Source of the DNA: a virus
Direction: 5' to 3' (one strand)
IMG/VR virus record: IMGVR_UViG_3300020183_004356
Coordinates: 1 to 56,560 of that record
DNA length: 56,560 nucleotides
Every line of letters begins with the position of its first letter. Position 1 is the stretch's first letter. Both the position numbers and the translations under genes were made by a program. Of the stretch, positions 13,514-53,840 are shown piece after piece. The notes beneath the pieces were generated by a model. It ran no database searches and had not been told where the DNA came from. It saw only the letters and a program-made list of their open reading frames with translations.

Positions 13514-14500
13514 TTACTTACTTTTAATTTTATGTGCGGGTAGATTTAATTCTTTGCCTTTTCCACCTTTTAAAACGTGTTTCTTTTCGACTTTACTCTG
13601 TTTAGGATATGTGTATTTAACTTTCTCGCCTTCACTTGGGTGTTCCGATTGTTTATTTACCTTGTTTACTTCTTTCATAGGTTGATTAGGTAAATCTTCT
13701 TCATTTACTACTTGATTTTCTTTATAGTCTTTTTGTTCGTTTTTCTTATCATTCAAAGATTTAATAGGATTTTGTTTGGTTTCAGGAAGTTCCGATCCTT
13801 TTACCTGATCATTTGTTTGTTCTGCGGATTTATTATAAGCTTTTTGAACGTAGTTGCCTTTTTCGTTTAATTTTTCTTTTACGAACTTTTTTAATTCATC
13901 TAAACTGTCATTCATATGTCTGGTTCTGTCGGTCCCATCTTTCGTATGAATTATATCATATGAATCCATATAATTTGGTCGAATGTGAAAATAATGCGGG
14001 AAACATCCAGAAATTTCGTATCCGCCGAGTTTACTTGGTTTCACACAATAATCTTTGCTATATTCTTTAACTACCTTATCTAAAGCGACCATGGATTCCT
14101 CAATGGATTTCTGAGTTTCCAATTTAATTTCTTCAATTGATTCTTTAATCAATGATGTTAGAATTTTTCTTTTAGACTCTTCTAATTTAGAAAGTTCCTT
14201 TTCCGCATCCAATTCGTGTTTTTTTACATATCCATCGGATCCCAGATACACATAACCTTTATCTTTAGCGACTTGATCAGCAAATGTCAAAATTTCTTCT
14301 TGAACGGATTCCGCTTGAGCGACATCTTTGATATGAGAATAAATTATATTAGATATATCATCATGATCCAAATATGTTTCGTTTTCATTAAATAGTTTTT
14401 CGACCTCGGATTTTATAGTATCTACCATAGATTCAAGATGTGCTGGATTCATCTCGTTCAAAACTTCTTGTATCAACGACTTTAACTCAGAAATATTCAT
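13514..14500 (-). CDS. Acidic/basic coiled-coil protein with N-terminal 'ELKSLIQEVL' tag, 328 aa
   Basis: Begins MNISELKSLIQEVLNEMNPA, nearly identical to the start of the unrelated gene at 24403-24831. The middle (about 95-150) is coiled coil; a segment with YEISGCFPHYFHIRPNYMDS may be a small folded domain; the last 100 residues are Lys/Glu/Gln-rich and look disordered. An ATATTTATA box ends four bases before the ATG. Short amphipathic N-terminal tags of this kind are known in T4 as capsid-targeting sequences of internal head proteins, so it could be an internal virion protein. Function not recognised. Confidence 0.65.
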   Translation of the reverse strand: MNISELKSLIQEVLNEMNPAHLESMVDTIKSEVEKLFNENETYLDHDDISNIIYSHIKDVAQAESVQEEILTFADQVAKDKGYVYLGSDGYVKKHELDAEKELSKLEESKRKILTSLIKESIEEIKLETQKSIEESMVALDKVVKEYSKDYCVKPSKLGGYEISGCFPHYFHIRPNYMDSYDIIHTKDGTDRTRHMNDSLDELKKFVKEKLNEKGNYVQKAYNKSAEQTNDQVKGSELPETKQNPIKSLNDKKNEQKDYKENQVVNEEDLPNQPMKEVNKVNKQSEHPSEGEKVKYTYPKQSKVEKKHVLKGGKGKELNLPAHKIKSK

Positions 14501-14504
14501 ATAT

Positions 14505-14513
14505 TATAAATAT
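14505..14513 (-). promoter_or_regulatory. ATATTTATA box
   Basis: Reads ATATTTATA on the minus strand and lies four bases before the ATG of the 328-aa tagged protein. See the finding on the recurrent box. Confidence 0.45.
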
Positions 14514-15286
14514 CATATAAAAAAAGAATCGTTAATATTATTTTCGACATCAAAAGTCTGTATTTCGTCGGAATAAGTAGAAAGTTTTGGATATGGTAAA
14601 ATTGGATGTTTTAGAGATTTTTTTAATTTTTTGTTTAAAATCTTATTGGATATAAATTTTATATATCTGTGTTTAGAACTTTCTTTCTTTCTCCAAAAAG
14701 TTTTACCTATTCTTTTTTTGAGATGTTCAATATTATGACTGCCCCACTTGGAAAACACCGTTCGACTGTGAATCCATTTATAATTTGGAGGACCATCTAA
14801 ACTTATGCTATAATTAGGCATTAAACACAAACTATTGTTGCCTTGATATAAAAAGCCTGTAGCTTGATATATGATTCCTGAGTGATTTACTTCTGAATCC
14901 GAATAACTTACCACCGATTTTATATGTGGAAAATCTTTATTTAATTGTTTAAAAGATTCTGCAATACAATAACTTTCTATATTTTTACCATATCCGTCAT
15001 GAATAAACAGTCTTACCAATTCAAATACTTCGTCTTTTGATAATAAATCGGATAATGAACTCGACACACTTCTTCCTACAGGTTGACTATAAACCACGCA
15101 ACCAATTAATTTATCTACTGTGTCGTTAAAATATAAAAACTTCTCTTCAGTTTTATAAAAAATACCGTATGCTATCCTGCATAACGTCCATTTATGAGTA
15201 TAATGGTTTTTTATAATAATATCTTTTGCTACTTTGCTGCTTATTGGTTTTAAATAAACTTTTTCAACATCACAATATTTTTCCAT
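14513..15286 (-). CDS. Mom-like GNAT-fold protein
   Basis: A 257-aa protein. The order DIIIKNHYTHKWTLCRIAYG (about 22-41), a strand pair with LIGCVVYSQPVGRS (60-73), LVRLFIHDGYGKN (90-102), and VSYSDSEVNHSGIIYQATGF (125-144) is the pattern of the Mom family and related GNAT-fold phage proteins. Mom of phage Mu adds a carbamoylmethyl group to adenine in DNA and protects it from restriction. Whether this protein modifies bases, and which group, is not known. It lies 12 bases upstream of the 328-aa tagged protein gene. A lysine-rich C-terminus is consistent with nucleic-acid binding. Confidence 0.6.
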   Translation of the reverse strand: MEKYCDVEKVYLKPISSKVAKDIIIKNHYTHKWTLCRIAYGIFYKTEEKFLYFNDTVDKLIGCVVYSQPVGRSVSSSLSDLLSKDEVFELVRLFIHDGYGKNIESYCIAESFKQLNKDFPHIKSVVSYSDSEVNHSGIIYQATGFLYQGNNSLCLMPNYSISLDGPPNYKWIHSRTVFSKWGSHNIEHLKKRIGKTFWRKKESSKHRYIKFISNKILNKKLKKSLKHPILPYPKLSTYSDEIQTFDVENNINDSFFI

Positions 15287-15322
15287 TAATATATGATGAT
15301 GAAATAAACGAAAAGGTCAATT

Positions 15323-15892
15323 TTATTTAATTTTTAAACTTCCTATATAACCGTTATTATGAGTTTTTATCGCATTACACTCTACTAAGAATGTGTTTCC
15401 GTTGTCTCCAACCATTCTATAAGTATCTTGATACATTCTTCCATCCGTTACACAATCGTTCCAATGATCTACAACCCTTTCTCGATCTTCTTCATGTATT
15501 ACGTTTTTCCAACCGTGTTCTAAAAAATAACTAATATCATGTTTAAATAATTTTGTGTATGCCGAATTTACCCATATACATTTTCCGTCATCAGAACTTT
15601 CAAAAATAGGCTCTTCTCTGTTATCCAAAATCCATCTCTGTCTGTGAAATATTTTTTCTGTAATTTGTGTGTTAATCGCCATCTGTTCGGACAAATGATT
15701 TATTTTATCTTTTATAGAGCCACCGCCGTTAGGTATAACTTCTTTGAAAATAACGTCTAGTTTATTTTGAAACGATAATAATTTTTCATACTGTTTTTTT
15801 ATCCATGTAATTATCCACGTAATCGTTTTATAAAGAGTACCTATCAACCCCAGTATTAGTATAGTGATCTGTAAATTGTTTTCGATATCCAT
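15323..15892 (-). CDS. Membrane-anchored PAS-domain protein
   Basis: A 189-aa protein. Residues about 8-30 (ITILILGLIGTLYKTITWII) form one membrane segment, 35-80 a helical linker, and about 85-189 a PAS domain with the typical series ESSDDGKCIWVNSAYTKLF, WKNVIHEEDRERVVDHWND, and YRMVGDNGNTFLVECNAIK. PAS domains sense small molecules, redox state or light. There is no kinase, cyclase or other output domain, so the output may be protein interaction or a competitor of a host sensor. An ATATTTATA box lies eight bases before the ATG. PAS proteins are unusual in phages. Confidence 0.8.
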   Translation of the reverse strand: MDIENNLQITILILGLIGTLYKTITWIITWIKKQYEKLLSFQNKLDVIFKEVIPNGGGSIKDKINHLSEQMAINTQITEKIFHRQRWILDNREEPIFESSDDGKCIWVNSAYTKLFKHDISYFLEHGWKNVIHEEDRERVVDHWNDCVTDGRMYQDTYRMVGDNGNTFLVECNAIKTHNNGYIGSLKIK

Positions 15893-15900
15893 ATATCAAT

Positions 15901-15909
15901 TATAAATAT
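15901..15909 (-). promoter_or_regulatory. ATATTTATA box
   Basis: Minus-strand ATATTTATA ending eight bases before the ATG of the PAS protein gene. Confidence 0.45.
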
Positions 15910-15938
15910 AATTAATTTTTATAAAAGTTAAAAATGAT

Positions 15939-17912
15939 TTACCTTATAGGGCAAAATCCACCGTCGCATTCTATTCCTTGAATAAGTTCTCCTGTAATAA
16001 CTGTGTTAAAAATTCTGTGTTTTATTTTTTCCGTTCCACGGATATATTCTTCCTCTGTAATTTCTTGATAAGGAGCTTGTTTGAAACCATGTTCTTTGTG
16101 TAATAAAAAACTTACACTTTTAATGTTTTGTTTATAATTTTCAGATAACCACTTTTTTAATTTTTCTAATTCTTCCGATTTATAATAAGCCGTAACACTA
16201 ACTGCATTGTCACTCCAAATCGATTGCAATTTCTTTACCATTTCCAATTGTTCGATTACGTTCATTTCTTTAGCGAGAATAGCGCCTTCTGGAGTTTTAC
16301 ATGGAAAATATACAACTACCGTGTCGTGATTTTCTGATCCATCAAGGTTTAACAAATATTCCACGTGATATCCGGAATCTTTACATATTTTTACTAATTT
16401 ATCGCTAGAAGACATCCGGATGGTTCTCATGTAATATTTACTATATGACGGATGAATTCCAGGAGTGGCGCCTCCTAAAAGAGACAATGTGCCACTTGGT
16501 TTTATGGTGGTAAGTTTTATACTTTCAGGCCAACCTTTTTGTTTGCTCCATTCTCTATCAAATTTTCTCAACATTACATAAACTTTATCTAACCATTCTA
16601 TTTTATTTAGTGATTGACAAATTCCTGTCACACCTAATCCCAACCTCATATTTTTATGAACAATTTTATTAGTTTCGTCGTGGATAAAAGGAAGTGCAGC
16701 GATGGCTTTTTGAGTCTTATACAGTAATTTTGCACAATCAAAAAGTTCTTCTTGACTATCTATGTTGTTCAAATATAATTCAGATAAATTGCAACATTCA
16801 TAGCTAGATAAAGAAATTTCTGAACAAGGGTTAGTGCCTATGACATTATCGACGTCAGTAGGATACATTTCGTTTCCCTTTAACGGTCCATCTTTTAATC
16901 TTCCATACGTCTGAGATAATGGCAAATTAAACAATCCATAAGGTTCTCCATTTGCATATCCTGTTTCTTTGTTTACTATATATCCATTTTTCCACACTTC
17001 TTCCATTATATGTTCAAATTCATCAACATATATAGTGTTATTGCTCATAGCTCGCCAGTTTGGGATATTCCCACTAGACCAATTTTTTGCTCTTAAATAC
17101 AAAATATCATCAGGATCACCTAAAGCGATTTCAGCACTTCTTCTTACGTTTCCAGCCACTACTATACTTCCAATAATATTACATACATCTAACACATCTA
17201 CGCTTCTTAATTTTTTTCCTTCTCGATTTTGAAAAATAGTTTTTATTTTTTCTATACCTTCTACTAAAATTGCGGGCCCACTAGCTTTTCCACCAAAACC
17301 GTTAATAGGTTCGCCGGCTCCTCTAATTAATATGGTGGAATAATTAAATGATTTTCCGGTTTCGTAGAATGATTTTAAAACGTATTCCAATAGTTTAACC
17401 CATCCTTCTCGAGTATCAGGAACAATAAAATCCGCATCTTTAGTTAATTTGTGAATTACATTTACTCCTTTTTTAATTTTTGGAAGCTCGTGAACATCTT
17501 CTCGTCTAATGCTATAACCTACGCCGCCACCAAGCATTAAATTTTCAAACAAAAACGTAAACGCTTTTGGTTCATTAATACTTACATACCAACAATTCAA
17601 TAAACTATTTGCGCCAAATCTATCAACTGTAGATGTTCCTAACTGCCATAACATTCTGCCTGCAAAATTGCATTTTAAATTAAAAATTAAATCAAACAGT
17701 CTCTGTGCTTCTTCTTTTGTGTAGCTCGCTCCGAGTTTTTGAGCCCCGTTTATACAACGAGCCACTGTCTCATGCCACTCTTCGGTGTTTCCATCATCTT
17801 TAGTTCTGGCATAAGTTCTTTTGTATACGATATATCCTAGTCCGTTAAATCCCCAGTTAGGTTGTTTGTTCTTATAATTTTCCAAAAAATCTTTTTCAAT
17901 AATCTCATTCAT
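15939..17912 (-). CDS. nrdJ: Adenosylcobalamin-dependent (class II) ribonucleoside-triphosphate reductase
   Basis: A 657-aa monomeric RTPR-type enzyme that reduces ribonucleotides to deoxyribonucleotides using B12. The key residues are in place: C107 (SLLNCWYV) and C374 as the redox pair, N361-P-C363-S-E365 as the active-site loop with the thiyl cysteine C363, and a C-terminal shuttle pair C649/C654 in CDGGFCPIR. The spacing of each pair matches that of the Lactobacillus enzyme. Being class II, it works without oxygen and needs no second subunit, but depends on host cobalamin. The gene is followed on the minus strand by the PAS gene after about 46 bases. Confidence 0.93.
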   Translation of the reverse strand: MNEIIEKDFLENYKNKQPNWGFNGLGYIVYKRTYARTKDDGNTEEWHETVARCINGAQKLGASYTKEEAQRLFDLIFNLKCNFAGRMLWQLGTSTVDRFGANSLLNCWYVSINEPKAFTFLFENLMLGGGVGYSIRREDVHELPKIKKGVNVIHKLTKDADFIVPDTREGWVKLLEYVLKSFYETGKSFNYSTILIRGAGEPINGFGGKASGPAILVEGIEKIKTIFQNREGKKLRSVDVLDVCNIIGSIVVAGNVRRSAEIALGDPDDILYLRAKNWSSGNIPNWRAMSNNTIYVDEFEHIMEEVWKNGYIVNKETGYANGEPYGLFNLPLSQTYGRLKDGPLKGNEMYPTDVDNVIGTNPCSEISLSSYECCNLSELYLNNIDSQEELFDCAKLLYKTQKAIAALPFIHDETNKIVHKNMRLGLGVTGICQSLNKIEWLDKVYVMLRKFDREWSKQKGWPESIKLTTIKPSGTLSLLGGATPGIHPSYSKYYMRTIRMSSSDKLVKICKDSGYHVEYLLNLDGSENHDTVVVYFPCKTPEGAILAKEMNVIEQLEMVKKLQSIWSDNAVSVTAYYKSEELEKLKKWLSENYKQNIKSVSFLLHKEHGFKQAPYQEITEEEYIRGTEKIKHRIFNTVITGELIQGIECDGGFCPIR

Positions 17913-18020
17913 AAAATACGTCTGTAAAAAATAAATATTTTGTTTTTTTTAAAACTTTTAAAATACCATAAAATTTTAAAAATAAATTCTGTTCGTTTTT
18001 ATTTTTTCTTACTATGATCT

Positions 18021-19406
18021 TTAATTGTCATCATCTTCACTATCCATGTGCGATTTCCATTTACTTGCCATCATTCTTTTAACTACATTTTCACCTTCGT
18101 TCATTTCTTGAATAGCGGCGATACCATCTCTCGATTTCTCATCGAAAATTTGAATATCTCCACAGCCTGCGTTCATTCGGCTTGGAAAAGTCATTCCATC
18201 TGGACCAAAACGATTCTTGATAATATGAAATCTTGCGGTATTACTCACTTTGTCGTTTACTTTTCTAGAAAGACTCATGACAAAATCCGCCGTCATTATT
18301 TTTCTGTAGCTATCGCTGATGTTATTGGCTTGAATAATATCTTCATCCATTGCCGCTCTATTGCTTTGTGATGCGGTCCAGATTGGTATTTGCAATTCTC
18401 CCGCAATGCTTCTTAATTCTTCATATATTCCGCCCGCCTCACTATAACTATTAGAGTTCTTATCGGAAGAAGTTGGCTTTAAAATATCAGCATAATCTAC
18501 AATTATCATGTCGATCTTGGTCCCTAAAGTTTGAATTCTTTCAGTATGAATTTTAAGACTGTGTGCGCTGACTGTTTTTAGTGGAAAATATTTGATTATT
18601 AATTTTCCAGGAATATTTGAAATTTTATCTTTAACAACATTTACGTTATTTCTAATATTTTGAAAGTCTATACCTGTAAAACAACTATCATATCTAAGCC
18701 CCACGTAGTTTTCATTTAATTCTAGAGTAAAATGTAACACGTTTTTTCCATTCTTCATTGCTTCTGCGCCGATTTTTGCTAATACCCAACTTTTACCACT
18801 GCCTGCACATGCCGTTATCACTCCTAACTCTCCTGAAGCTAATCCTCCATCCATTATAGCATCGACTACTTCCCACGGAGTTCTCATCGTGTTTCTTGCC
18901 ATTACACTCATACGATTGTCTATATCGATCATATAATCATGTCCGATGTTTCTTTCCATGCCTGCTTTCAACGCTTCTTGAACTACATGCGAAATTCTAT
19001 CATAATGGCCTATTTTAATCAATTCGACGCTACTAAGAATAGCATTTTTCATTTTTTGATTTTTACAAAATTCTAAATACTGTTCCTTCACATATTTTAT
19101 ATCGCTCTCGCTTATTTTTTGATATACTAACTTTAGTTGGTCGACTACTGTTTTTTTAAGCAATTCAGTTTCGATTGTATCTACTTGAACTTTAAAAGCT
19201 GTCATCGTAGGTAAATCTTTATATTTTATAAAATATTCTACAATAGTTTTTACTATCCATTGGTGAGCATCCATTTCAAAGCTATTGAAATCTACAATGT
19301 CGTATATTCTTTCTAAAAAAGTCTTATCGCTCAAAAGACTTGAAATACATTTTAATTGAAAGTCGTTTCCGTATTTTTTAAGGTTGTTTATTATTTGGTT
19401 TTCCAT
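18021..19406 (-). CDS. Replicative DNA helicase (DnaB/T4 gp41-like)
   Basis: A 461-aa RecA-fold hexameric helicase that unwinds DNA 5'-3' at the fork. Residues about 1-150 are the helical N-terminal domain. Walker A is ACAGSGKS at 199-206, Walker B is IDMIIVDYADIL, and the conserved Gln/Ser of motif H3 appears as IPIWTASQSNRAAM. RFHIIKNRFGPDG carries the arginine-finger region. The C-terminus is acidic (SEDDDN). Length and motifs fit gp41 of T4-like phages. It starts opposite the divergent plus-strand gene 19533. Confidence 0.9.
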   Translation of the reverse strand: MENQIINNLKKYGNDFQLKCISSLLSDKTFLERIYDIVDFNSFEMDAHQWIVKTIVEYFIKYKDLPTMTAFKVQVDTIETELLKKTVVDQLKLVYQKISESDIKYVKEQYLEFCKNQKMKNAILSSVELIKIGHYDRISHVVQEALKAGMERNIGHDYMIDIDNRMSVMARNTMRTPWEVVDAIMDGGLASGELGVITACAGSGKSWVLAKIGAEAMKNGKNVLHFTLELNENYVGLRYDSCFTGIDFQNIRNNVNVVKDKISNIPGKLIIKYFPLKTVSAHSLKIHTERIQTLGTKIDMIIVDYADILKPTSSDKNSNSYSEAGGIYEELRSIAGELQIPIWTASQSNRAAMDEDIIQANNISDSYRKIMTADFVMSLSRKVNDKVSNTARFHIIKNRFGPDGMTFPSRMNAGCGDIQIFDEKSRDGIAAIQEMNEGENVVKRMMASKWKSHMDSEDDDN

Positions 19407-19476
19407 ATGAAGGTATCAATATGTAATTACAATACTATTATAAAAACAAAAGACAATTTTTTTTATGTCGTTTTAC

Positions 19477-19484
19477 TATTTATA
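19477..19484 (+). promoter_or_regulatory. TATTTATA box in the divergent region before gene 19533
   Basis: CTATTTATA lies 48 bases before the ATG at 19533, in the same orientation as boxes elsewhere but farther away. Between it and the gene is a small hairpin, CGGAT-GTATG-ATCCG, and an AGAAAGATAAATT leader. Confidence 0.35.
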
Positions 19485-19532
19485 GTTGAAATCGGATGTA
19501 TGATCCGCTTTCTACAAAAAGAAAGATAAATT

Positions 19533-20219
19533 ATGAATAATTATTACAATACTGTGGATGTAAATATCCTTGTTAAAGGAAATCCTGTCGCTACCTATTT
19601 TAAAGACGAAAAAACTTATATAGAAGCAAAAGATGGAAGCGAATATGAAATTCAAATAAAAAATAAAAATTTCAATCGAATACTTGCTTTAGCTAGTGTA
19701 GATGGTTTAGATGTTCTGACAGGCGAACCGTCTTCTAACGACGATGGTGGTTACGTTATAAATCCATATGACTCATTTAAAGTTAAAGGATTTAGATACA
19801 GTAATGAAAAGGTGGGTTCGTTTAAATTTGTAAGCAATAAAAAATCGTCCGTCTCGAATCAAATTTTAAAAAATTGTGGAACTATAGTCGTAAAAATTTT
19901 TTGCGATGCATCCGCTTACACGTATACTGCCACCAGTCCCACATTTGTTAAAAATTCAGAAACATGTAATTTTGATATAAATCACAATTTAAACGAAAAT
20001 TGCAGATTTAACATGGGTTCTACGTGGGGTTCTTCAAAAGAAAGCAAAGTAACCTCCACAGACTTTGATCGAGGTTATATAATTCATTCATTTGAATTTC
20101 ATTACGCGTCTAGAAATACGTTATTAGAAATGGGAGTAATAGGAAATTCAACTCCCAAAGTTTCTTTTCCTAAAGGTTTTATAAAATATGCCGTTCCACC
20201 CAAAGATTGGATAGGATAA
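19533..20219 (+). CDS. Conserved-type protein of unknown function, 228 aa, on the plus strand
   Basis: Begins MNNYYNTVDVNILVKGNPVA, with YIEAKDGSEYEIQIKNKNF, RILALASVDGLDVLTGEPSS, GYVINPYDSFKVKGFRYS and VGSFKFVSNKKS. I recognise the 'VSVDGL.V..G.P....GY.I.P......GFR....V..F.F' pattern as one that recurs in phages and some bacteria, but I know of no assigned function. The protein looks all-beta with no membrane segment. It is inserted between two replication genes that face the other way, which suggests independent gain and its own promoter. A single-base-pair-scale gap (six bases) separates its stop from that of the exonuclease gene. Confidence 0.65.
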   Translation: MNNYYNTVDVNILVKGNPVATYFKDEKTYIEAKDGSEYEIQIKNKNFNRILALASVDGLDVLTGEPSSNDDGGYVINPYDSFKVKGFRYSNEKVGSFKFVSNKKSSVSNQILKNCGTIVVKIFCDASAYTYTATSPTFVKNSETCNFDINHNLNENCRFNMGSTWGSSKESKVTSTDFDRGYIIHSFEFHYASRNTLLEMGVIGNSTPKVSFPKGFIKYAVPPKDWIG

Positions 20220-20225
20220 TAATGT

Positions 20226-21299
20226 TTATTTTATAAAATTATCTAGTTTAGTAAACACTTCGCTGAGCCATACATTTCCATTTGGAATATTATTCCAAAT
20301 TTTATCCTCTCGCATTAACCCTATAAATTGCATTCTATTTAATCTAGAAATTTGAGAATCTATTATTTCGTTTATTCTTAATTGTGTAAAACTTTGAATC
20401 TGAGTGTCATTCAACTGCATTAAATCATAATTTCTTTGTGCAACAGATTTGTTGTCTAAAATGGTATCGTGCAACTTATATTTTCCCTTATGACTTTCAC
20501 AGTAATTAAATATCTCATCCAAGCTATATCGATAATTATGTTCAAATATAGGAAAACACTTTTTTATAGTTTTTAATCCTGCTCCGTATATTCCATCAAT
20601 ATTATCACTCACATCGCCTTCTAATACTCTATAATTTATGAAATTTTCACAACTTATTCCATACTCAGATAAAATTTCCGCACAACCATAAAGTTTTTTC
20701 TTTGTGGAACTCCAAATTTTAACTCGATTACTTGCTAATTGTAAAAAGTCTTTATCAGAAGACATTATTGTAATATTACTGTCTTTAAATTTGTCTAATG
20801 ACAAATATGCAATTACATCATCCGCCTCAACGTTATCTACACACAACACAGTTACAGGTAAGTTTTTTAAATAATCTACCGTTCTAATTAATTGTTTCTT
20901 TAAATTCTTTTCTTCGGTATCTGCATCGGCGTTATCTAAATAAGTTCTATTTATTCTGATTTTAGTTACCCGTTTATTTTTGTAATCGGGATAGATTTTT
21001 CTTCTTTTTTGACTTCCTCCTGAACCGTCAAAAACAATTACGCATTTTGTAGGGTTAAAAAGTTTGATGGCATATCCGATACTCTTTAAGAATCCGGATA
21101 TGCCACCTGTGTGTATTCCATCTGCGTTCATATATGGTGATACGCAAAAACTTTTTATGAAAGTATTTAATCCATCAATTATTAATATATCCGACAGTTG
21201 ATTTTTTTGTAATCCTGTTGTCGATGTTTCTTCATTTTTATTTACACTTTCAAATAAAGAATACAATTTTTTTTTATCTGAAGAATTAATACTTTCCAT
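20226..21299 (-). CDS. 5'-3' exonuclease / RNase H (FEN-like, T4 Rnh type)
   Basis: A 357-aa protein with a FEN/PIN nuclease core that removes RNA primers and 5' flaps. Motifs: ILIIDGLNTFIKSF near residue 33, CVIVFDGSGGSQKRRKIYPD, VEADDVIAYLSLD, ITIMSSDKDFLQL and LEGDVSDNIDGIYGAGLKTI, which give the acidic metal ligands and the helix-two-turn-helix DNA-binding site. About 30 extra N-terminal residues are low complexity. It lies two bases downstream of recA/uvsX and is certainly co-transcribed with it. Confidence 0.9.
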   Translation of the reverse strand: MESINSSDKKKLYSLFESVNKNEETSTTGLQKNQLSDILIIDGLNTFIKSFCVSPYMNADGIHTGGISGFLKSIGYAIKLFNPTKCVIVFDGSGGSQKRRKIYPDYKNKRVTKIRINRTYLDNADADTEEKNLKKQLIRTVDYLKNLPVTVLCVDNVEADDVIAYLSLDKFKDSNITIMSSDKDFLQLASNRVKIWSSTKKKLYGCAEILSEYGISCENFINYRVLEGDVSDNIDGIYGAGLKTIKKCFPIFEHNYRYSLDEIFNYCESHKGKYKLHDTILDNKSVAQRNYDLMQLNDTQIQSFTQLRINEIIDSQISRLNRMQFIGLMREDKIWNNIPNGNVWLSEVFTKLDNFIK

Positions 21300-21301
21300 T
21301 T

Positions 21302-22453
21302 TTACTCCTCGTCAGATTCGTCCTCATTAGTATCTACAACTGTATCGTCAACAATTATACTGTTCGGGTCTTTATATTTCATTATTACAGACTCAGATAT
21401 TTTATTATACAATTCTTCCTTAAACAAAGGATCTTTTGTCATCATATCAACCAAATCTTTAGATTGAAACTGAATTTCTTCTCCATTTACTTTAGTATAT
21501 TTATAATAAGCGCCGGCTTGTTTTATTATGTTTTGTTCTTTTAATACTTTTAACCAGCTCGCATAATCCGCAATGCCACTATCAAAATAGATATCAAAAC
21601 TTGCTTGTCGTTGTGGTGGCCCCATTCTATTTTTTACAACTTGTGCTTTGCATTCATTACCAATTACTTCTTCTCCCTTTTTAAGTTTTCCAGTATTATT
21701 AAGCCTCACTCTAACTGAACAATGATAGGCTAACGCCTTACCGCCACTTACAGTATATTTGTCTCCGAATGCCATCGCATTGAGATTTTGTCTTAATTGA
21801 TTAGTGAAAACAATCAATACTTTTTGTCTACCAATCATGTTAGTAATTTTTCGCATTGCTTTACTAATAATAATTGATTTAGCCGTTGCAAATCCATCTT
21901 TGCCATGTTCGCTTTCTTGTTCAGTTTTAGTCGACGCAGCCGCCACAGAATCTACTATAATCGTAAGAATTCTATCTTTATTACTTTTTCTAACCACGGA
22001 TATTAGTTTTTCCATCTGTTCAAAAATATCTTCTACCGTTTCGCATGGAGAATACGGAAGATTTTTTAAATCTACACCTAAGCTTTTCCAAAACTCAGGC
22101 GCGGCTGCATTCTCCGTATCGATAACTACTGCAATGCCACCTTTCTTTTGTGTATTTGCTACAATATGAGCAGAAATCAAACTTTTTCCCGTTCCTTCTA
22201 ATCCGTTAAATTCTACCATTCTGCCAACAGGAAGTCCTCCGTTTGGACGATTACTTATCGCTAAATCTAACAAAGATGAACCTGTGGAAATCCAGTCGGA
22301 TATTGTGGAAGGATCGTCTTGATCATCTAAGAAATATACTTTTTTTCCTTCTTTGGAATCTTTATTTAAAGCATCTGCTAATTCAGATACTAATTCGTCT
22401 CGGTCTTGTTTAGATTCAATTGTTGCGTTTTTTGTACTTTTATTTTTTGCCAT
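21302..22453 (-). CDS. uvsX: RecA/UvsX-type recombinase
   Basis: A 383-aa protein that forms filaments on single-stranded DNA and carries out strand exchange. Walker A is GLEGTGKS at 84-91; Walker B is ILTIIVDSVAAAST; the L2 region includes TNQLRQNLNAMAFGDK. The C-terminus is very acidic (DTNEDESDEE), like T4 UvsX. It has the best ribosome site in the window, AAAAGGAG seven bases before ATG, and a strong hairpin just upstream. The neighbouring gp32-like and exonuclease genes make a recombination and repair operon. Confidence 0.92.
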   Translation of the reverse strand: MAKNKSTKNATIESKQDRDELVSELADALNKDSKEGKKVYFLDDQDDPSTISDWISTGSSLLDLAISNRPNGGLPVGRMVEFNGLEGTGKSLISAHIVANTQKKGGIAVVIDTENAAAPEFWKSLGVDLKNLPYSPCETVEDIFEQMEKLISVVRKSNKDRILTIIVDSVAAASTKTEQESEHGKDGFATAKSIIISKAMRKITNMIGRQKVLIVFTNQLRQNLNAMAFGDKYTVSGGKALAYHCSVRVRLNNTGKLKKGEEVIGNECKAQVVKNRMGPPQRQASFDIYFDSGIADYASWLKVLKEQNIIKQAGAYYKYTKVNGEEIQFQSKDLVDMMTKDPLFKEELYNKISESVIMKYKDPNSIIVDDTVVDTNEDESDEE

Positions 22454-22471
22454 AAAACTCCTTTTAAAAGG

Positions 22472-22500
22472 GGGGAGAGGCGAGTATTTCGCCTCTCCCC
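22472..22500 (-). terminator. Strong GC hairpin between SSB and recA genes
   Basis: Perfect 12-bp stem GGGGAGAGGCGA / TCGCCTCTCCCC with a five-base loop, by far the most GC-rich stretch nearby. On the minus strand it is followed by CCTTTT and then the recA Shine-Dalgarno sequence, so the U run is short. It likely acts as a leaky terminator or mRNA-end stabiliser for the abundant SSB message, and sits 18 bases before the recA ATG. Confidence 0.8.
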
Positions 22501-22521
22501 GTTAAGTTTACCAAATGTATA

Positions 22522-23343
22522 TTAACTATTAAACAAATTATCAAATGCTTTGGTAACGTCTTCAACATTTGATTTTGCGGCGGTCGCGCTAGGCGATTTA
22601 GTAGTAGGATTTTTAGCTGCTTCAACTGCGGCCGTCTCTACCTCTTCGGCTGTAGGAACGGGTTCTTCAGTTCCGCCATTTTCGGCATCATTTGATGCCA
22701 ACCAAGCTTCCATAACTGCCTTAAGCTCGTCATAACTAAGCTCAGGAAATATTTCAAGAAGATTTGGCTGACTGCTGATCATTGAAACCATTTCTTTATT
22801 ATTTGGATCAACCGCTGGAGAAACGTTTGGCTTAACTCTGATAGCCGTCTCAGGATATTGTTTACCCGTCTCATTGGCCGTCTTAAACTCTACAACCACG
22901 TCACGTCCCTTAACTAGATCGGTAATGTCACCAAAATCTGGATCTGCGATGATTGCCAAAATCTCTTGGTATACATTCTTACCAAATCCCCAGAACTTAA
23001 CACCTTCAAATTCTTGTCCACGGACAATTACTGGAGCAAAAGTTCTCATTTTTGGTTCAATTTTTCGACCAAACTTCCATTCCTCTTTATCTCCGCTTCT
23101 CTTTAGCTTATTGGAGAATTCTACAATAGGATCTGGTCGATTGAAAGAATCTGGACTCAAATAAGTTTTTCCGTTAAGTCCATAATGAAACTTCAATTCA
23201 ATAAATGGGTTTTCAATATTGTGCTTGTAGGGAACGATTCGAATAACTTGTTTACCAGGTGATGGTTTCCAAATTAAATTGCTTTTGGTATTGTTTGAAA
23301 ATGAGTTCAAACGACTCTTAATTTTTTCTATGTTTAATGGCAT
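22522..23343 (-). CDS. Single-stranded DNA-binding protein (T4 gp32-like)
   Basis: A 273-aa protein. It coats single-stranded DNA during replication and recombination. The N-terminal region and core follow gp32: SNLIWKPSPGKQVIRIVPYK, then GVKFWGFGKNVYQEILAII and a C-terminal acidic, Ala/Glu/Pro-rich tail ending in DVTKAFDNLFNS, the tip used to recruit partners. The four zinc ligands of T4 gp32 are absent: the matching stretch reads SFNRPDPIVEFSNKL, with no Cys. It is next to UvsX, helicase and exonuclease genes. The leader upstream is extremely AT-rich, which could support autogenous translational control as in T4. Confidence 0.85.
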   Translation of the reverse strand: MPLNIEKIKSRLNSFSNNTKSNLIWKPSPGKQVIRIVPYKHNIENPFIELKFHYGLNGKTYLSPDSFNRPDPIVEFSNKLKRSGDKEEWKFGRKIEPKMRTFAPVIVRGQEFEGVKFWGFGKNVYQEILAIIADPDFGDITDLVKGRDVVVEFKTANETGKQYPETAIRVKPNVSPAVDPNNKEMVSMISSQPNLLEIFPELSYDELKAVMEAWLASNDAENGGTEEPVPTAEEVETAAVEAAKNPTTKSPSATAAKSNVEDVTKAFDNLFNS

Positions 23344-23445
23344 AATGTTATTTTTTAATTTTTAATTAGTAAATAAGTTAATTATTAACTACTCTGTTAA
23401 GTATTTTCTTATCACCAATAAATAGTATCGTATACTAGTATTCAA

Positions 23446-24360
23446 TCAGTTGGAAGTTATTTTAACTAAAATTTTTTTAGAATAATTATATCTATAAAAT
23501 TCACAGTTTAGATGTGAGATTATTTTTTTATGACGTGCTTCATCTTTTTCAGTTAGTTTACCGTTTTTATAATGCCTGGGCTCATCGTATTCTACCACAA
23601 TATTTTTATCTTTGTCGTATCCATCAACCCAATATCCCAATTCTTTTATATAATACTCTCCACCATTCATTGCATGAATAAGATTCCATCCGTTTTTAAT
23701 ATTAAGTTCATCCAAATAACGGCACGCTTCTATATTAAAATTTGGAGCAGATTGTCCATTATATAATTGTTCTCGTCGTTTATTATGAGACATTCTTATT
23801 TTATTGCGTACTTCGTCTCGTTTAGCCGGATTTAATTCTCCTGTTCTTTTTCCTGAATTTGATCCGCTTATTTTTTTCTTAGCATCCTCTGTGTGATGTT
23901 TTCCAAAAAAAGGATGTCGTGTTCCTGATCGACCCATACATGGTGCATTATCTCCAGAATTTGATTGGCTTATTTTTTTCTTAGTATCTTCTGTGTGATG
24001 TTTTCCATACATCGGATGATTTTTTCCACAATTTTTTAAACTTATTTTATTTTTAGTTTCGTTTGATAATTTTTTACCAATTTTTATGTCACGCATTTTA
24101 TTTTTAGACTCCACTGTATGTTTTTTACCGTACATGGGGTGTTTTTTTCCAGAAAAATCTCTACACGCCATACAATTTCCGTTTAATCGGCGTATCAAAT
24201 CCGTCTTCAATCCGTAAAACATAAAGTTTTCACATTTTTTACAACGTCGGAAATATTTTCTTTTTGAATCGACTAAAATATATGGATAATTTTTTGTTCT
24301 GTCAAAATTAATATAATATTCGATTTCATTATATTTAATTTTGGTCATGTTAATTGACAT
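23446..24360 (-). CDS. Free-standing homing endonuclease with NUMOD3 repeats
   Basis: A 304-aa protein. N-terminal zinc ribbon (CKKCENF...CMACRD), then four to five NUMOD3 DNA-binding repeats of the type GKKHPMYGKKHTVESK, and a C-terminal nuclease-like domain with YWVDGYDKDKNIVVEYDEPRHY, EARHKKIISHLNCEFYRYN. The D...E-Y-D-x-x-x-H pattern fits an EDxHD/Vsr-like fold. It lies just 5' of the SSB gene and is not in an intron as far as I can see. It would spread by cutting genomes that lack it. Confidence 0.85.
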   Translation of the reverse strand: MSINMTKIKYNEIEYYINFDRTKNYPYILVDSKRKYFRRCKKCENFMFYGLKTDLIRRLNGNCMACRDFSGKKHPMYGKKHTVESKNKMRDIKIGKKLSNETKNKISLKNCGKNHPMYGKHHTEDTKKKISQSNSGDNAPCMGRSGTRHPFFGKHHTEDAKKKISGSNSGKRTGELNPAKRDEVRNKIRMSHNKRREQLYNGQSAPNFNIEACRYLDELNIKNGWNLIHAMNGGEYYIKELGYWVDGYDKDKNIVVEYDEPRHYKNGKLTEKDEARHKKIISHLNCEFYRYNYSKKILVKITSN

Positions 24361-24402
24361 AAAGCTTAATCGTAATTTATCATAATAAAATAACCGCGTA
24401 GA

Positions 24403-24831
24403 TTATTTGGTTAATTGATTCACTATTTCTTTTTTAAAATCAATATATTTGTTGTTAATTTCTGGATATTTTTCAGCTATACTATTCCACTCAACATCTA
24501 ATAACTTTATATTTTTATTATAGTTATCTAAATCTATGTTACCGATTGCGTGTACAACCGCATCTACAATTTTTTGTGTTTCGCTTATACCGGCTTTTAT
24601 ATCTATTCTTTTTTTTCTATCAATATAATTTGTTATTACATGTAACACTTTAGACTTCATTGCAAAATCTTTATCATCATACGGATTTATTTTTGTGGCT
24701 GGAAAAGTTCCATTTTTATCATCTTGCGAGTTTGTTGAATCGAATGGGTCACGGGGTTCATTTTCCAATCCTTGTAAATTCATTTCGTATAAAACTTCTT
24801 GTATCAACGATTTTAGTTCTTTTTTTTTCAT
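24403..24831 (-). CDS. Protein with duplicated N-terminal tag, 142 aa
   Basis: Opens MKKKELKSLIQEVLYEMN, which repeats residues 5-17 of the 328-aa protein at 13514-14500, including a DNA stretch of 20 identical bases. The remainder is helical and charged with no known motif. It follows the homing endonuclease and precedes a 129-aa unknown. The tag suggests targeting to a common place, for example the prohead. Function unknown. Confidence 0.6.
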   Translation of the reverse strand: MKKKELKSLIQEVLYEMNLQGLENEPRDPFDSTNSQDDKNGTFPATKINPYDDKDFAMKSKVLHVITNYIDRKKRIDIKAGISETQKIVDAVVHAIGNIDLDNYNKNIKLLDVEWNSIAEKYPEINNKYIDFKKEIVNQLTK

Positions 24832-24849: not shown

Positions 24850-25239
24850 TCAAATTTTTATAATGTCAATTAGTTCAAGATTAATAGTTCGATAACCAAT
24901 ATCTGTGGTTATGATCAATGTGTTTTGAAATAAGTTCCAATCTATCTGATAATTTTTATCTAATCTTCCTCCGGTTTCTTCTTGAATAATTCTATTTAAA
25001 GAATTTAATGTGTAAAGTGTGTTTGTTTGTTTTTTTCTATGAATTGAAATTGTAGCAGGAAATTTTTTGTAAATTCCTTCGGAAAAAATATTGTAAGTCA
25101 AAATTATAGAGTCATCTTTTGATTTATCTTTAAAAATGAAAAATTTTTTATCCGATAAAGTATAGAAACTTTTTATGGTTGTTATTAATCCGACATACTC
25201 TTTAACATTAGAAAATGTACATAACAATTGAATTTTCAT
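24850..25239 (-). CDS. Hypothetical protein, 129 aa
   Basis: Sequence MKIQLLCTFSNVKEYVGLIT ... mostly beta strands with GYRTINLELIDIIKI at the end. No membrane segment or catalytic motif. Its ATG overlaps the stop of the 240-aa gene by four bases (ATGA), so translation is coupled. It may be a small structural or accessory protein; I do not recognise it. Confidence 0.6.
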   Translation of the reverse strand: MKIQLLCTFSNVKEYVGLITTIKSFYTLSDKKFFIFKDKSKDDSIILTYNIFSEGIYKKFPATISIHRKKQTNTLYTLNSLNRIIQEETGGRLDKNYQIDWNLFQNTLIITTDIGYRTINLELIDIIKI

Positions 25240-25958
25240 TTTCTAATTAAAAAAGTGTTGTTAGATTCGTCAAAAAATTGAGTGCCGATTAATTCTCCGT
25301 CTTGAGTATACCAACGTTTGTCTTTTTTATAAAAATTAAGTTTTTTCGCTTCTTCAATAGTATACGTTATTGACTCGTTAGTTAAAATCTTTTCTACATA
25401 TTCTTCTTTAGCTTTTTCAATTTCTTTATCTGCCATCATAGATTTTACGTCAGGTGTCGAACCGGAAATAGGTATAGATGCTGGATCAGACGTGGGTGTA
25501 GAAACGTTTATGGTTGAAGAATCCGGATCGGCCGCTGGAGCTGCTGGAGCTGCTGGAGCTGCTGGAGCTGCTGGAGCTGCTGGAGCTGCTGGAGCTGCTG
25601 GAGCTGCTGGAGCTGCTGGAGCTGCGGCTGAAGTGATTGGTGTTGAAAATTGAAGGTTTGTTTGTCCGGCTTTAGGATTTTTTTCAAAATGGGTGCCTCT
25701 TTGTATAGCTCGTTGTTTATATTCTGCGGTCGGAAACGTCACTAATATTCCATTGTTATTATAAGCTTGTCTTTCTGGAAATCTTCCTTCTAACATGCGA
25801 TTTCTCACGGCAATAGATTCTTCTTTGGAAGCTCCCATATTTTGTAAATATTCTTGAAATATATCAAGATGATCGTTATTATCAATTTCAAAAGTTCCGT
25901 TTGAAATTCTTTCATCCAATGAGATTTTATTTAAAAATTTTTCAGCTATAGTATTCAT
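25236..25958 (-). CDS. Protein with Ala-Ala-Pro repeat linker, 240 aa
   Basis: Residues 1-105 are a folded charged region (ending LQFSTPITSA), followed by about 11 AAP triplets, a Ser/Thr/Pro-rich segment and a C-terminal helix and beta region with YTQDGELIGTQFFDESNN. The AAP block is encoded by a nearly perfect 9-bp tandem repeat. Such rigid Ala-Pro stalks separate domains in envelope, virion and enzyme-complex proteins. It is in a run of small proteins after the polymerase gene. Function unknown. Confidence 0.65.
   Translation of the reverse strand: MNTIAEKFLNKISLDERISNGTFEIDNNDHLDIFQEYLQNMGASKEESIAVRNRMLEGRFPERQAYNNNGILVTFPTAEYKQRAIQRGTHFEKNPKAGQTNLQFSTPITSAAAPAAPAAPAAPAAPAAPAAPAAPAAPAAPAADPDSSTINVSTPTSDPASIPISGSTPDVKSMMADKEIEKAKEEYVEKILTNESITYTIEEAKKLNFYKKDKRWYTQDGELIGTQFFDESNNTFLIRK
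25534..25625. repeat. 9-bp tandem repeat, about ten copies
   Basis: Unit GGAGCTGCT (coding AAP on the minus strand) repeated almost without change. It will be prone to slippage, changing linker length in steps of three residues. Confidence 0.95.
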
Positions 25959-42311: not shown

Positions 42312-42638
42312 TTACTCTTTTACGATTGATGCGGCTTTAACAGCTGCCTCTGTAGATTTAACTTTTTCTTCTGCATTTTTTACCGACTGTTCTTTTTCAG
42401 TTAAATCTTTTTCTCCAGAATCTTTTGCAGATTTTAATGATTCTTGTGCTTTATTCAAATTATATTTTGCTTTTTCTAATGATTTAGATTTTGCCTTTAA
42501 ATCAAACTCGTCACGTTTTAATTCTAAGTCTTTTATTTCTTTATCAAACGTCTCGTTTTCTTTATCTTGTTCATTTTGTTCCAAGATAATTCTTATATAA
42601 CTTCTCACATATTCTTTTAATTTAACTTTTTTATTCAT
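42312..42638 (-). CDS. Small coiled-coil protein with tag-like N-terminus, 108 aa
   Basis: MNKKVKLKEYVRSYIRIILE opens with a helix of the same type as other tag-like starts, followed by one long charged coiled coil rich in Lys, Glu and Ala to the end (AEEKVKSTEAAVKAASIVKE). It sits between a homing endonuclease and the gp26-like gene. A variant box ATATTTATT lies 11 bases upstream. Function unknown; a minor virion or scaffold component is plausible. Confidence 0.6.
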   Translation of the reverse strand: MNKKVKLKEYVRSYIRIILEQNEQDKENETFDKEIKDLELKRDEFDLKAKSKSLEKAKYNLNKAQESLKSAKDSGEKDLTEKEQSVKNAEEKVKSTEAAVKAASIVKE

Positions 42639-42671: not shown

Positions 42672-44321
42672 TTATTTTGAAAAAATCCACTTAGAGTGTC
42701 CACAATCCCAAATTCTATCGTAATTATTAAGTTGCATATTTTGCCATTCGGTTAAATTTTTATCAAATTTATTCAGTTTTTTATCAAGATTGTGTTTAAC
42801 AAACCCGTATCTATGTAATCTATCTGGATTGCCATATTTAATATAAAAATAATTAGGCGGCGTGTTTGATTCAAAAGAAAATCCTAACTTTTTATAAATA
42901 TCTCCAATACTCCACCTTCTATCCGCGTATGATATTATTTTCTTAGGATTGTAAGTCTTTATAAAATATTTAATAAGTTTACTAGCTCCACCTATTATCA
43001 GATTTTCTGAACAATATCTATACATTTCGTATTCATCTTCTTTATGTTTGTTTCCTAGAATGACTCTGAGTTTTCCAAATGTCATAACCGATACAAGGTT
43101 TCCTTTAAAAATTAAAGCTAACCGTATCGATGAATTGCATTTTCCCTGAAGATGGTGTGTTTCCAAAAACTGATCGCAATCTTTTGAATTAATCTCTTGG
43201 ATTTCACAGTCTCTAGCATAAATCTTATTTTTTGCATTTTTACCTAAAATGTGAGATAGTCGAGTTTTGACCACGTTTTCTTTTTTAATCCACTCATCCT
43301 CAAATATGTGAATAAGTCTAATGTTCTTCTGAAGACATTCTTCTGTTTTTTTTAAATGATACATTTTTGATTTTTTTCCTGCCAACTCACTGTGCCAATA
43401 TGTTCCGTCAAATTCTATTGCAACGTTTTTAGCCGGAATGTATATATCAAGTTCACCCGAAATAATACCTCTTTGTTTTTTTTGTATTTCCACTTCGGCA
43501 CCCATCAACGATTTGATATAATCGGATATTTCTTGTTCCATAATCGATGTTCCTCGAATGTATGGATTGCAAACCAAACATCTGGGAATATGTCCGCCGT
43601 CTATGTGATCTTCAAAAATTGCCTCACACTTATTACATTTAAATTTATATAAATTTGATTTATCCGTCGTAACATACTCTTCGTTTTCAAAACAAACAGA
43701 AACATGTTCGTTTATTTTTGGATTGGATCTTAACTTTTCCCATCGACGCAACCGATTTTTTTTAACCATTTTTAATTTTATAATATCAGAATTTACAGGT
43801 ATTTTATTTCCGTATTTTTCTATATTGGTGTTGTGAATTTTAGATTTAATTGACTCACATTTAAAAACATTATCACATCCGTATTTTTTTCTAACCGTGT
43901 TTTTTACCTTTTCTTTGACCATCTTAGATTGTGATGGATTTTCCGTTCCGTATTTTTTTAAATTTGAAATTTTTATTTTTTCTTTTACCACGTTTGATTG
44001 AAAAGAACACTCAACCCCAAAATTCTTTTTATTTGTAGTTTTAATCTTATCGATGACCTCCGATGATTTTGACGCATTATTTACGCCGTATCGTTCTAAA
44101 CACGTTTTTTTTGCTTTTTCTGGATTAACATACGTCTCAGATCCATATTTTTTTAATTTTGTGCTCTTTATTTTATCAATACGATTTTTGTCATTCGCCG
44201 TCGCTTGAGAACTGCATTTAACACAACAAAATCTTTGCTTTCTTTTTATTAAAGATTCAAATTCGTTATTACATACTTCACAATTTTTTACTATATAATA
44301 TGTATTTTTTAATTTTATCAT
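42672..44321 (-). CDS. Homing endonuclease with Vsr-like nuclease and GNAT-like C-terminal domain
   Basis: A 549-aa protein. N-terminal zinc ribbon (CEVCNNEF...CCVKC); then six to seven repeats of the type LKKYGTENPSQSKMVKEKVK; a second zinc ribbon (CNKCEAIFED...CLVC); nuclease domain ELDIYIPAKNVAIEFDGTYW, HSE, HLKKTEECLQ, RLIHIFEDEW, consistent with an EDxHD/Vsr fold; then a domain with HHLQG, LALIFKGNLVSVMTFGK, IISYADRRWSIGDIYKKLGF, and the end NNYDRIWDCGHSKW. It is inserted between the tail tube and a small coiled-coil gene. Two paralogues lie at 45064-46623 and 48215-50149. Confidence 0.82.
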   Translation of the reverse strand: MIKLKNTYYIVKNCEVCNNEFESLIKRKQRFCCVKCSSQATANDKNRIDKIKSTKLKKYGSETYVNPEKAKKTCLERYGVNNASKSSEVIDKIKTTNKKNFGVECSFQSNVVKEKIKISNLKKYGTENPSQSKMVKEKVKNTVRKKYGCDNVFKCESIKSKIHNTNIEKYGNKIPVNSDIIKLKMVKKNRLRRWEKLRSNPKINEHVSVCFENEEYVTTDKSNLYKFKCNKCEAIFEDHIDGGHIPRCLVCNPYIRGTSIMEQEISDYIKSLMGAEVEIQKKQRGIISGELDIYIPAKNVAIEFDGTYWHSELAGKKSKMYHLKKTEECLQKNIRLIHIFEDEWIKKENVVKTRLSHILGKNAKNKIYARDCEIQEINSKDCDQFLETHHLQGKCNSSIRLALIFKGNLVSVMTFGKLRVILGNKHKEDEYEMYRYCSENLIIGGASKLIKYFIKTYNPKKIISYADRRWSIGDIYKKLGFSFESNTPPNYFYIKYGNPDRLHRYGFVKHNLDKKLNKFDKNLTEWQNMQLNNYDRIWDCGHSKWIFSK

Positions 44322-45063: not shown

Positions 45064-46623
45064 ATGGGTAGACGTAGAAAGAATCCGATTAACGTGACAA
45101 AACAATGTCCAACATGTGGCGTTAATTTTTTAATTAAATATTCAAAACAACATCAAGTTTATTGTAGTCGAGCTTGTTCACAGAAATCTCCATCGGTTAT
45201 AGCAAAAATGAAATGTAGTCAAAAAGAAACGTTTATTGAAAAATATGGAGTAGAACACCCTATGTTGACCGATGCTACAAAATTAAATTTTAAAAAATCG
45301 ATGTTGAGTAAATATGGTGTTGATCATCCAAGTCATATGGATGGACACAGGGAAAAGGTTAAGTTAACATTGAAAAACAGATACGGTGCTGAAAATTATA
45401 ACAATCTTAAACAAATGGAAAAAACCATGTTTGACAGATATGGGGTTGTGAACTATAGAAAAACTTCAGCTTGTTCGGACAAAATAAAACAAACGTGTTT
45501 GAAAAAATATGGTGTGGAACATGCCTCTCAAAGAGAAGAGCTAAGGCATAAACATCGCTCGAATATGTTTATTAAATTTAAAAATTTGCCAGAATTTGAG
45601 AATTTTACACCTCTGTTTAGTTTAAATGATCTACAGGGAATGTCTTCTGAAATTATTAGATACAAATTTAAATGTAACCGATGCGATTCTCTTGATTTTT
45701 ACAAACTTATAGATGGAAGTAAACCTTTATGTAAAAAATGTGATAAAGATATTTTATTTAAAAACCAAAACGAATTGTGTTTGTTTTTAAAAGATATTTT
45801 AGAAAAAGATGAAACGATTATTGTTGATGATCTAACTATACTATATCCTCAAGAAGTAGATTTATATATTCCATCGAAAAAAATTGTAGTCGATCTTGTG
45901 GATTTGCAATCTCACAGCGAATTGGTTGGCGGTAAAAATAAAACATATCATTTGTTAAAAACCAAAAAATGTCTGAGAAAAGAAGTTGAGTGTGTTCAGA
46001 TTTTTGAAAATGAATGGAATGATAAAAAAGAAATAGTGAAATCAATTTTAAAAAATAAATTTAAAAAATGTGATAATAAATTTTATGCTCGTAACTGCAC
46101 TGTAAAAATTCTTAACAAAGAAGAATGTAAAAATTTTTTAAACGAAAATCATATTCAGGGAAACGATAAGTCTTTTTTTAAAATTGGTTTGTTTCATAAC
46201 AATATGTTGGTGTCGGCAATGACATTTTGTAAAAGTAGATATAATAAAAATTACGAATACGAACTTAGTCGTTATTGTAACAAATTGTATTCAAACGTTG
46301 TCGGTGGAGCGGAAAAGTTATTTTCTTTCTTTTTAAAAAAATACAATCCCAAAAACATTATTACTTACAGTGATCGTCGATTTTTTTCCGGCGAAGTATA
46401 TCTTAAATTAAAATTTAATTTTACACATAACACCTCTCCCAATTATTTTTATATATCGGATAATTATAAAACTTTATTAGGAAGAATTAGCTTTCAGAAA
46501 CATAAATTGAAAAAATTGTTGTCTTTGTATGAAGAAAATCTTAGTGAGTGGGAAAACATGAAAAACAACGGATATGATAGAATTTGGGATTGTGGCCACT
46601 CGACCTGGGTTTATACCGCTTAA
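45064..46623 (+). CDS. Plus-strand homing endonuclease paralogue with degenerate nuclease site
   Basis: A 519-aa paralogue of the endonucleases at 42672 and 48215, in reverse orientation. N-terminal zinc ribbon (CPTCGVNF...CSRAC), repeats such as KKYGVEHASQREELRHK, second ribbon (CNRCDSL...CKKC), nuclease-like region and C-terminal GNAT-like domain ending NNGYDRIWDCGHSTW. In the nuclease core the family sequence IEFDGTYWHSE is replaced by VDLVDLQSHSE, losing the central D-G and Tyr-Trp and changing the E. Good ribosome site AAAAGG before ATG. Inserted between tube and nucleotidyltransferase genes; it overlaps the latter's stop by four bases. Confidence 0.78.
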   Translation: MGRRRKNPINVTKQCPTCGVNFLIKYSKQHQVYCSRACSQKSPSVIAKMKCSQKETFIEKYGVEHPMLTDATKLNFKKSMLSKYGVDHPSHMDGHREKVKLTLKNRYGAENYNNLKQMEKTMFDRYGVVNYRKTSACSDKIKQTCLKKYGVEHASQREELRHKHRSNMFIKFKNLPEFENFTPLFSLNDLQGMSSEIIRYKFKCNRCDSLDFYKLIDGSKPLCKKCDKDILFKNQNELCLFLKDILEKDETIIVDDLTILYPQEVDLYIPSKKIVVDLVDLQSHSELVGGKNKTYHLLKTKKCLRKEVECVQIFENEWNDKKEIVKSILKNKFKKCDNKFYARNCTVKILNKEECKNFLNENHIQGNDKSFFKIGLFHNNMLVSAMTFCKSRYNKNYEYELSRYCNKLYSNVVGGAEKLFSFFLKKYNPKNIITYSDRRFFSGEVYLKLKFNFTHNTSPNYFYISDNYKTLLGRISFQKHKLKKLLSLYEENLSEWENMKNNGYDRIWDCGHSTWVYTA

Positions 46624-53561: not shown

Positions 53562-53840
53562 TTATTTATTTTGTGGGGTAAAAGTACCATCTTTTAAAGA
53601 AAGTGTTCCATCTCCATACTTGGTACTTAGATCCGACAACAATTTAGACTCATCTTCTTGTAATTTCAAGTATTCTTCACGAAGTTTATTTTCCGATTCG
53701 TTTATAGATTTTATAGCCTGTTCAATAGAAATTCTTTCTATATTTAGCTGGCCAAACATAATCAATTTTTCTTGATATGATTCTTGTAGAGTTTTAATAG
53801 CTCTTAATTCTTCGTCGGTAAATTTTATAACGTCATTCAT
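53562..53840 (-). CDS. Small coiled-coil protein, 92 aa
   Basis: MNDVIKFTDEELRAIKTLQE ... a single long helix with heptads, ending in a short beta hairpin GDGTLSLKDGTFTPQ. Proteins of this size and shape occur upstream of sheath genes in marine T4-like phages as I recall, with no known role. Its ATG overlaps the stop of the nucleotidyltransferase gene by four bases. Confidence 0.65.
   Translation of the reverse strand: MNDVIKFTDEELRAIKTLQESYQEKLIMFGQLNIERISIEQAIKSINESENKLREEYLKLQEDESKLLSDLSTKYGDGTLSLKDGTFTPQNK

Follow-up and report, generated by a model that had tools for sequence, protein, structure and literature searches.

A shared N-terminal tag on unrelated proteins of a T4-like myovirus and its relatives, a likely capsid-targeting propeptide

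Two proteins of a T4-like myovirus that are otherwise unrelated open with the same 16-residue tag. The tag is modular, ends sharply at [VIL]xE and, in relatives of the phage, is linked to the genes of the head. Since it opens 28 unrelated families and stops where the head protease would be expected to cut, it seems likely to be a capsid-targeting propeptide acting like those of the T4 internal proteins. There are no virion data behind this reading, and packaging, cleavage and injection are all inferred from sequence alone. No virion mass spectrometry data were found for these phages, nor was any description of the tag found in the open-access literature searched.

The stretch of DNA that was analysed, referred to here as the window (56,560 nt, IMGVR_UViG_3300020183_004356), comes from a T4-like myovirus and is only part of its genome; it encodes tail sheath, tail tube, RecA, a DnaB-type helicase and SSB. 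Over 55.6 kb the window matches an 80-kb IMG/VR contig at 99.99% identity, and that contig adds sequence on the left side; both are fragments and head genes are absent from both. Relatives of the window, identified through the tail sheath and a 129-aa gene, include Flavobacterium phage immuto, Microcystis phage Mel-JY01, LR756508, which is an uncultured 484-kb phage, and many IMG/VR contigs.

Two unrelated proteins with the same start

The 328-aa protein (13514-14500, minus strand) starts MNISELKSLIQEVLNEMN and the 142-aa protein (24403-24831, minus strand) starts MKKKELKSLIQEVLYEMN, so that both share the start M-x-x-x-ELKSLIQEVL(N/Y)E, followed by MN. The two genes have an identical 20-mer, AAAACTTCTTGTATCAACGA, in common (Table 1). 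No further match to it was found in the window with up to three mismatches permitted, and two matches were seen in none of 100 shuffles. When the N-terminal 40-mers from the contig were compared all against all, with pairs that are homologous further downstream excluded, the 328-aa/142-aa pair scored 64, whereas unrelated pairs top out at about 39. The DNA identity between the two genes stops just past the tag and no similarity between the bodies of the proteins was found beyond it. An initial annotation had claimed that these two proteins carry the same N-terminal tag and are unrelated to each other; with the 20 identical bases, the score of 64 and the dissimilar bodies, both claims held. It had put forward a search of the full genome for the tag as a check; a search of the window gave no third clear tag.

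Table 1. Features of the tagged proteins and of a weak third candidate; positions are those of the window.
Feature	Position	Strand	Evidence
N-terminal tag of 328-aa protein, residues 1-16, MNISELKSLIQEVLNE	14453..14500	minus	translation, 20 shared identical bases, alignment with 28 tagged families
Mature part of 328-aa cargo (predicted)	13514..14452	minus	orthologs, AlphaFold2 model
N-terminal tag of 142-aa protein, residues 1-16, MKKKELKSLIQEVLYE	24784..24831	minus	translation, shared 20 bases, tagged-family alignment
Mature part of 142-aa cargo (predicted; no family assigned)	24403..24783	minus	only near-identical IMG/VR copies
20-base identical stretch, copy 1	14460..14479		sequence match
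20-base identical stretch, copy 2	24791..24810		sequence match
Possible third tag, residues 1-21, MNKKVKLKEYVRSYIRIILEQ, on 108-aa coiled-coil protein; weak	42576..42638	minus	pair score 36

It is very unlikely that the two proteins are diverged paralogs retaining only their N-terminal region. phmmer does pair them weakly (E 0.02-0.07), but the tag accounts for this and the bodies fail to align; moreover, the 142-aa locus of the near relative G002 encodes a third body, unrelated to these, behind the same tag. That the stretch is functionless and shared merely through gene conversion or a recent duplication of DNA can likewise be all but set aside. The 20 bases are identical at synonymous sites also, as such an event would give; against it, a similar tag is present on several distant orthologs of the 328-aa protein and on 28 families of other phages. 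Duplication is perhaps how the tags spread, yet it gives no account of why they are kept.

In the AlphaFold2 model of the 328-aa protein, which has a mean pLDDT of 68, residues 3-17 form a separate N-terminal helix. The predicted mature part consists of a variable region, a second tag-like helix (around residues 114-126), a conserved beta domain (around 150-200) and a disordered Lys-rich tail. No PDB fold matched the model at E<=0.001. Orthologs of the protein are present in 8 relatives, at the same locus wherever this was examined. The 142-aa gene lies in a slot of variable content, flanked by SSB and the conserved 129-aa gene, and the only IMG/VR matches to its product are near-identical copies. 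Pfam and PHROG searches with the two proteins gave nothing reliable and tblastn of both against phage records gave no match. In each protein the cut, which is predicted from the sequence alone, would fall after E16, at L-N-E in the 328-aa protein and L-Y-E in the 142-aa protein.

The initial annotation had also listed similar starts at 42638 and 27157, which was not supported. The start at 27157 was rejected as a tag, being part of a different, longer conserved domain that is common to a 240-aa neighbour and the protein at the same position in relatives. Compared with the 142-aa tag, the start at 42638 (KLKEYVRSYIRIILEQ) scores just 36, no higher than noise, and the tag profiles gave no match to it; that it is a third tag is possible, though the evidence is weak. 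The generic motif alone was not enriched in the window beyond the two tagged proteins and the 27157 domain.

Several other repeated segments were seen in the window. The 240-aa protein encoded at 25236-25958 has a perfect (AAP)n repeat in its middle and belongs to a family conserved beside the 129-aa gene. An RfaE-like nucleotidyltransferase and a methyltransferase-like protein (53837-54292 and 55692-56417, minus strand) share the start M(L/I)IENLK(Q/S)WRDSF...NKKLVV with a pair score of 98; this appears likely to be a partial duplication of the nucleotidyltransferase start and is distinct from the tag. The tail tube gene is surrounded by three large ORFs (42672-44321, 45064-46623 and 48215-50149) that have a common C-terminal R-I-W-D-C-G-H and repeated KYG segments; they are probably homing-endonuclease-like insertions.

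The tag as a module in relatives, and its end

A search of IMG/VR with a DNA pattern encoding MKKxELKxLIxEV returned 63 stretches, corresponding to 48 distinct proteins whose bodies fall into 28 unrelated families. In the 48 proteins the tag lies at or near the start codon, and for most of the tags found with the pattern there is little or no open frame 5' of the ATG. A single 297-kb contig has at least ten tag matches, three of them in tandem. G002 has the tag at both of the corresponding loci: a 381-aa ortholog of the 328-aa protein and the unrelated 185-aa protein at the 142-aa locus are tagged, their starts conforming to MKK(T/E)(E/Q)(L/F)-x-x-(I/L)I-x-EC(M/L)NE. Orthologs of the 328-aa protein retain a tag-like start, several with an extra copy ahead of another tag-like segment. 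The slot between the 129-aa and SSB genes is empty in many relatives and, where occupied, often encodes a protein whose start ends L/I-x-E. A cargo motif, CWxGY...VPNCVP, was found behind three tag types across different phages. The tag is a genuine module, put on different proteins by different phages, and one cargo may follow tags of several types.

The end of the tag is equally well defined. When each of the 28 families is given the same weight, residue 14 is hydrophobic ([IVLM]) in 100%, residue 15 may be any and residue 16 is Glu in 96%, against a background for Glu of 8.5%; residues 14-16 had been left unconstrained by the search pattern. Conservation drops from residue 17-18 and is near background from 18 onward. 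The residue following the proposed cut is hydrophobic in 57%, being Met in the window proteins, while the predicted MCP sites have Ala/Ser. In 2,591 proteins of relatives, where the core ([hydrophobic][polar]x[hydrophobic][hydrophobic]) is N-terminal, Glu comes two residues after it in 39%, versus 9.6% where the core is internal. T4 gp21 cleaves at L/I-X-E, and the T4 internal proteins bear targeting propeptides of 10-19 residues (PMC9026906). The [VIL]xE end of the tag has this signature, and lies where the head protease of the phage would be expected to cut.

The motif was calibrated on T4, where the strict form matches, among 253 ORFs, only IPII, IPIII, gp24 and Alt, all known gp21 substrates. 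A looser form also picks up a few T4 proteins not known as substrates, and for this reason the strict form was taken as the calibrated one. Strict-motif matches number 62 at the N-terminus, compared with 9-16 in each successive internal window and 4.8 after shuffling. These counts bear on whether the tags are no more than chance or convergent amphipathic, Glu-rich coiled-coil starts. Helical segments rich in Leu, Glu and Lys are frequent in these AT-rich genomes, the generic motif on its own shows no enrichment in the window and matches to the tag profiles occur inside proteins too. Nevertheless, the excess at the N-terminus and the score of the window pair relative to unrelated pairs make this explanation very improbable. 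A sirtuin-like protein in G013 (MELKELINEAKYVVAFTGAGLS) we take to be a chance motif match, judging from how sirtuins start.

Other tags were seen in the relatives. In immuto (L021-L024) a long tag, ENFDLKKFLVENKLTxNSKxLxE, is found on four unrelated proteins and KKQILSEQF(R/K)RMQxLAGIITES on two; tagged proteins of this phage lie at 102294, 102880, 113188, 117631, 118632 and 123355. LR756508 (L025-L027, 150001-300000) has more than 30 N-terminally tagged proteins, among them roughly twelve divergent ones whose tag reads MKLKxLLxE; most of these also have LYRG and SxFAST-like segments. Of twelve LYRG proteins aligned, most have LYRG or a close variant. The idea that they are ADP-ribosyltransferases similar to T4 Alt was not confirmed by Pfam and PDB profile searches; it remains possible as a hint at the level of the motif only and is not counted as evidence.

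Head genes and the prohead protease in relatives

Both the protease and the capsid protein expected of such a system are found in the relatives. Pfam identifies Peptidase_S77 and Gp23 in G017 and a Peptidase_S77 protease in immuto (124660-125241) and LR756508; in other relatives the gp21-type protease or the Gp23 capsid protein was detected by homology. Just upstream of the protease gene, in the position of T4 gp67/gp68, lies a gene for a conserved protein that opens with a tag-like helix (immuto 123355, LR756508 3398, G012 72035, G017 274387 and 274702). The pattern [LIVM]xE[AMIS][STN]xT[GA] is common to the end of this helix and the predicted cut site of the MCP; it occurs only 13 times in 514,695 residues, 10 of these being in the MCP and protease-adjacent families. 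In LR756508 the part up to the neck gene holds 64 of the 166 genes but 21 of the 29 long tags (p = 5e-5); for the short tags a concentration in the head cluster is unclear or weak, with 13 seen and 9.4 expected. Some of the tagged proteins, among them a LysM lysozyme in G010, are odd things for a head to carry. In LR756508 the prohead protease (L026:6480-8204) is 574 aa long and has internal matches to intein-splicing and LAGLIDADG models, so its gene probably carries an intein.

An alternative is that the tag is an uncleaved docking helix, which recruits proteins not to the head but to another phage structure, such as a replication/transcription complex, the baseplate or an intracellular compartment. 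In its favour, some tagged genes are not in the head cluster, for instance those next to SSB/RecA and MoxR/VWA genes, and a family that adjoins baseplate genes of immuto, and has matches in Mel-JY01, G010, G012 and G017, opens with a similar helix. However, a docking helix would leave unexplained both the sharp [VIL]xE end and the match between the end of the protease-adjacent tag and the predicted MCP cut site, and we consider it unlikely.

The capsid-targeting reading, which the initial annotation had proposed as a T4-like signal cut by the prohead protease, is supported by sequence evidence only. Speaking against it are the often hydrophobic residue after the proposed cut, the lack of head genes in the window, the short tags' unclear concentration in the head cluster, the odd cargo, the similar helix beside baseplate genes and the mature window proteins not being basic. 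The evidence in favour comprises the 28 body families, the strictly N-terminal position, the [VIL]-x-E end and the presence of a gp21-type protease with a gp23-type capsid in relatives, with further support from the correspondence between the helix end of the protease-adjacent head protein and the predicted capsid-protein cleavage site.

Proposed mechanism and relation to known systems

In the mechanism that we propose, the 16-residue amphipathic N-terminal helix would bind the prohead core, so that the tagged protein becomes part of the immature head. The gp21-type serine protease of the phage would then cut after Glu16 (L-N/Y-E, before M), and the freed protein would remain in the head with the DNA and enter the next host together with the genome.

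The closest known kind is the capsid-targeting sequences of T4 (IPI, IPII and IPIII, and also Alt and gp24). Like the tag, these are short N-terminal segments on unrelated proteins, their hydrophobic core runs into [L/I]-x-E, and a gp21-type protease and gp23-type capsid are encoded alongside, as in relatives of the window. The T4 internal proteins differ widely, their targeting sequence alone being conserved (PMC3012670). The tag would nevertheless be a new variant rather than a recognisable homolog or a member of the T4 family. It was placed outside that family because only the type of motif is shared: the tag profile gave no match to T4 IPI-III, Alt or gp24 and there is no detectable homology to the MKTYQEFIAE propeptide. 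The tag has 16 residues and a KKSELKxLIxEV core, in contrast to the 10 residues (MKTYQEFIAE) of IPII and IPIII, and some relatives, unlike T4, apparently use such tags on tens of proteins. T4 internal proteins are basic, whereas the mature forms of the two window proteins are not, that of the 328-aa protein having a pI of about 6.2. Packaging has been demonstrated in T4 but is here only inferred.

Head proteins of SPN3US and phiKZ also have N-terminal propeptides that are removed after Glu by a diverged gp21-type protease. In SPN3US the cut is at A-x-E and most propeptides have 111-254 residues (PMC10052503), in contrast to the [VIL]xE motif and 16-residue length of the tag. A predicted [LIV]xE cut is also shared with the propeptides of T4 gp23 (65 residues) and of the MCP of these phages, and the MCP propeptide and the tagged protease-adjacent protein have the same [AMIS][STN]xTG pattern after the predicted cut. 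The MCP propeptides, though, are about 60 residues long and confined to one protein, while the tag is short and mobile.

On a bolder reading, which we favour by a narrow margin, a large group of uncultured T4-like phages shares interchangeable head-packing tags of 10-25 residues, with which many unrelated proteins, tens of them in a huge phage, would be loaded for injection. If so, the injected proteins could be listed directly from genomes and metagenomes by means of their tags. Phage proteins are mostly without known function, and proteins injected from the head act before phage genes are expressed, often against host defences. Should the tag be what it appears to be, its sequence alone would tell, for isolates and metagenomes alike, which of the unknown proteins are packaged and injected. 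It would also add further short signals to the T4 one already used to load foreign proteins into phage heads.
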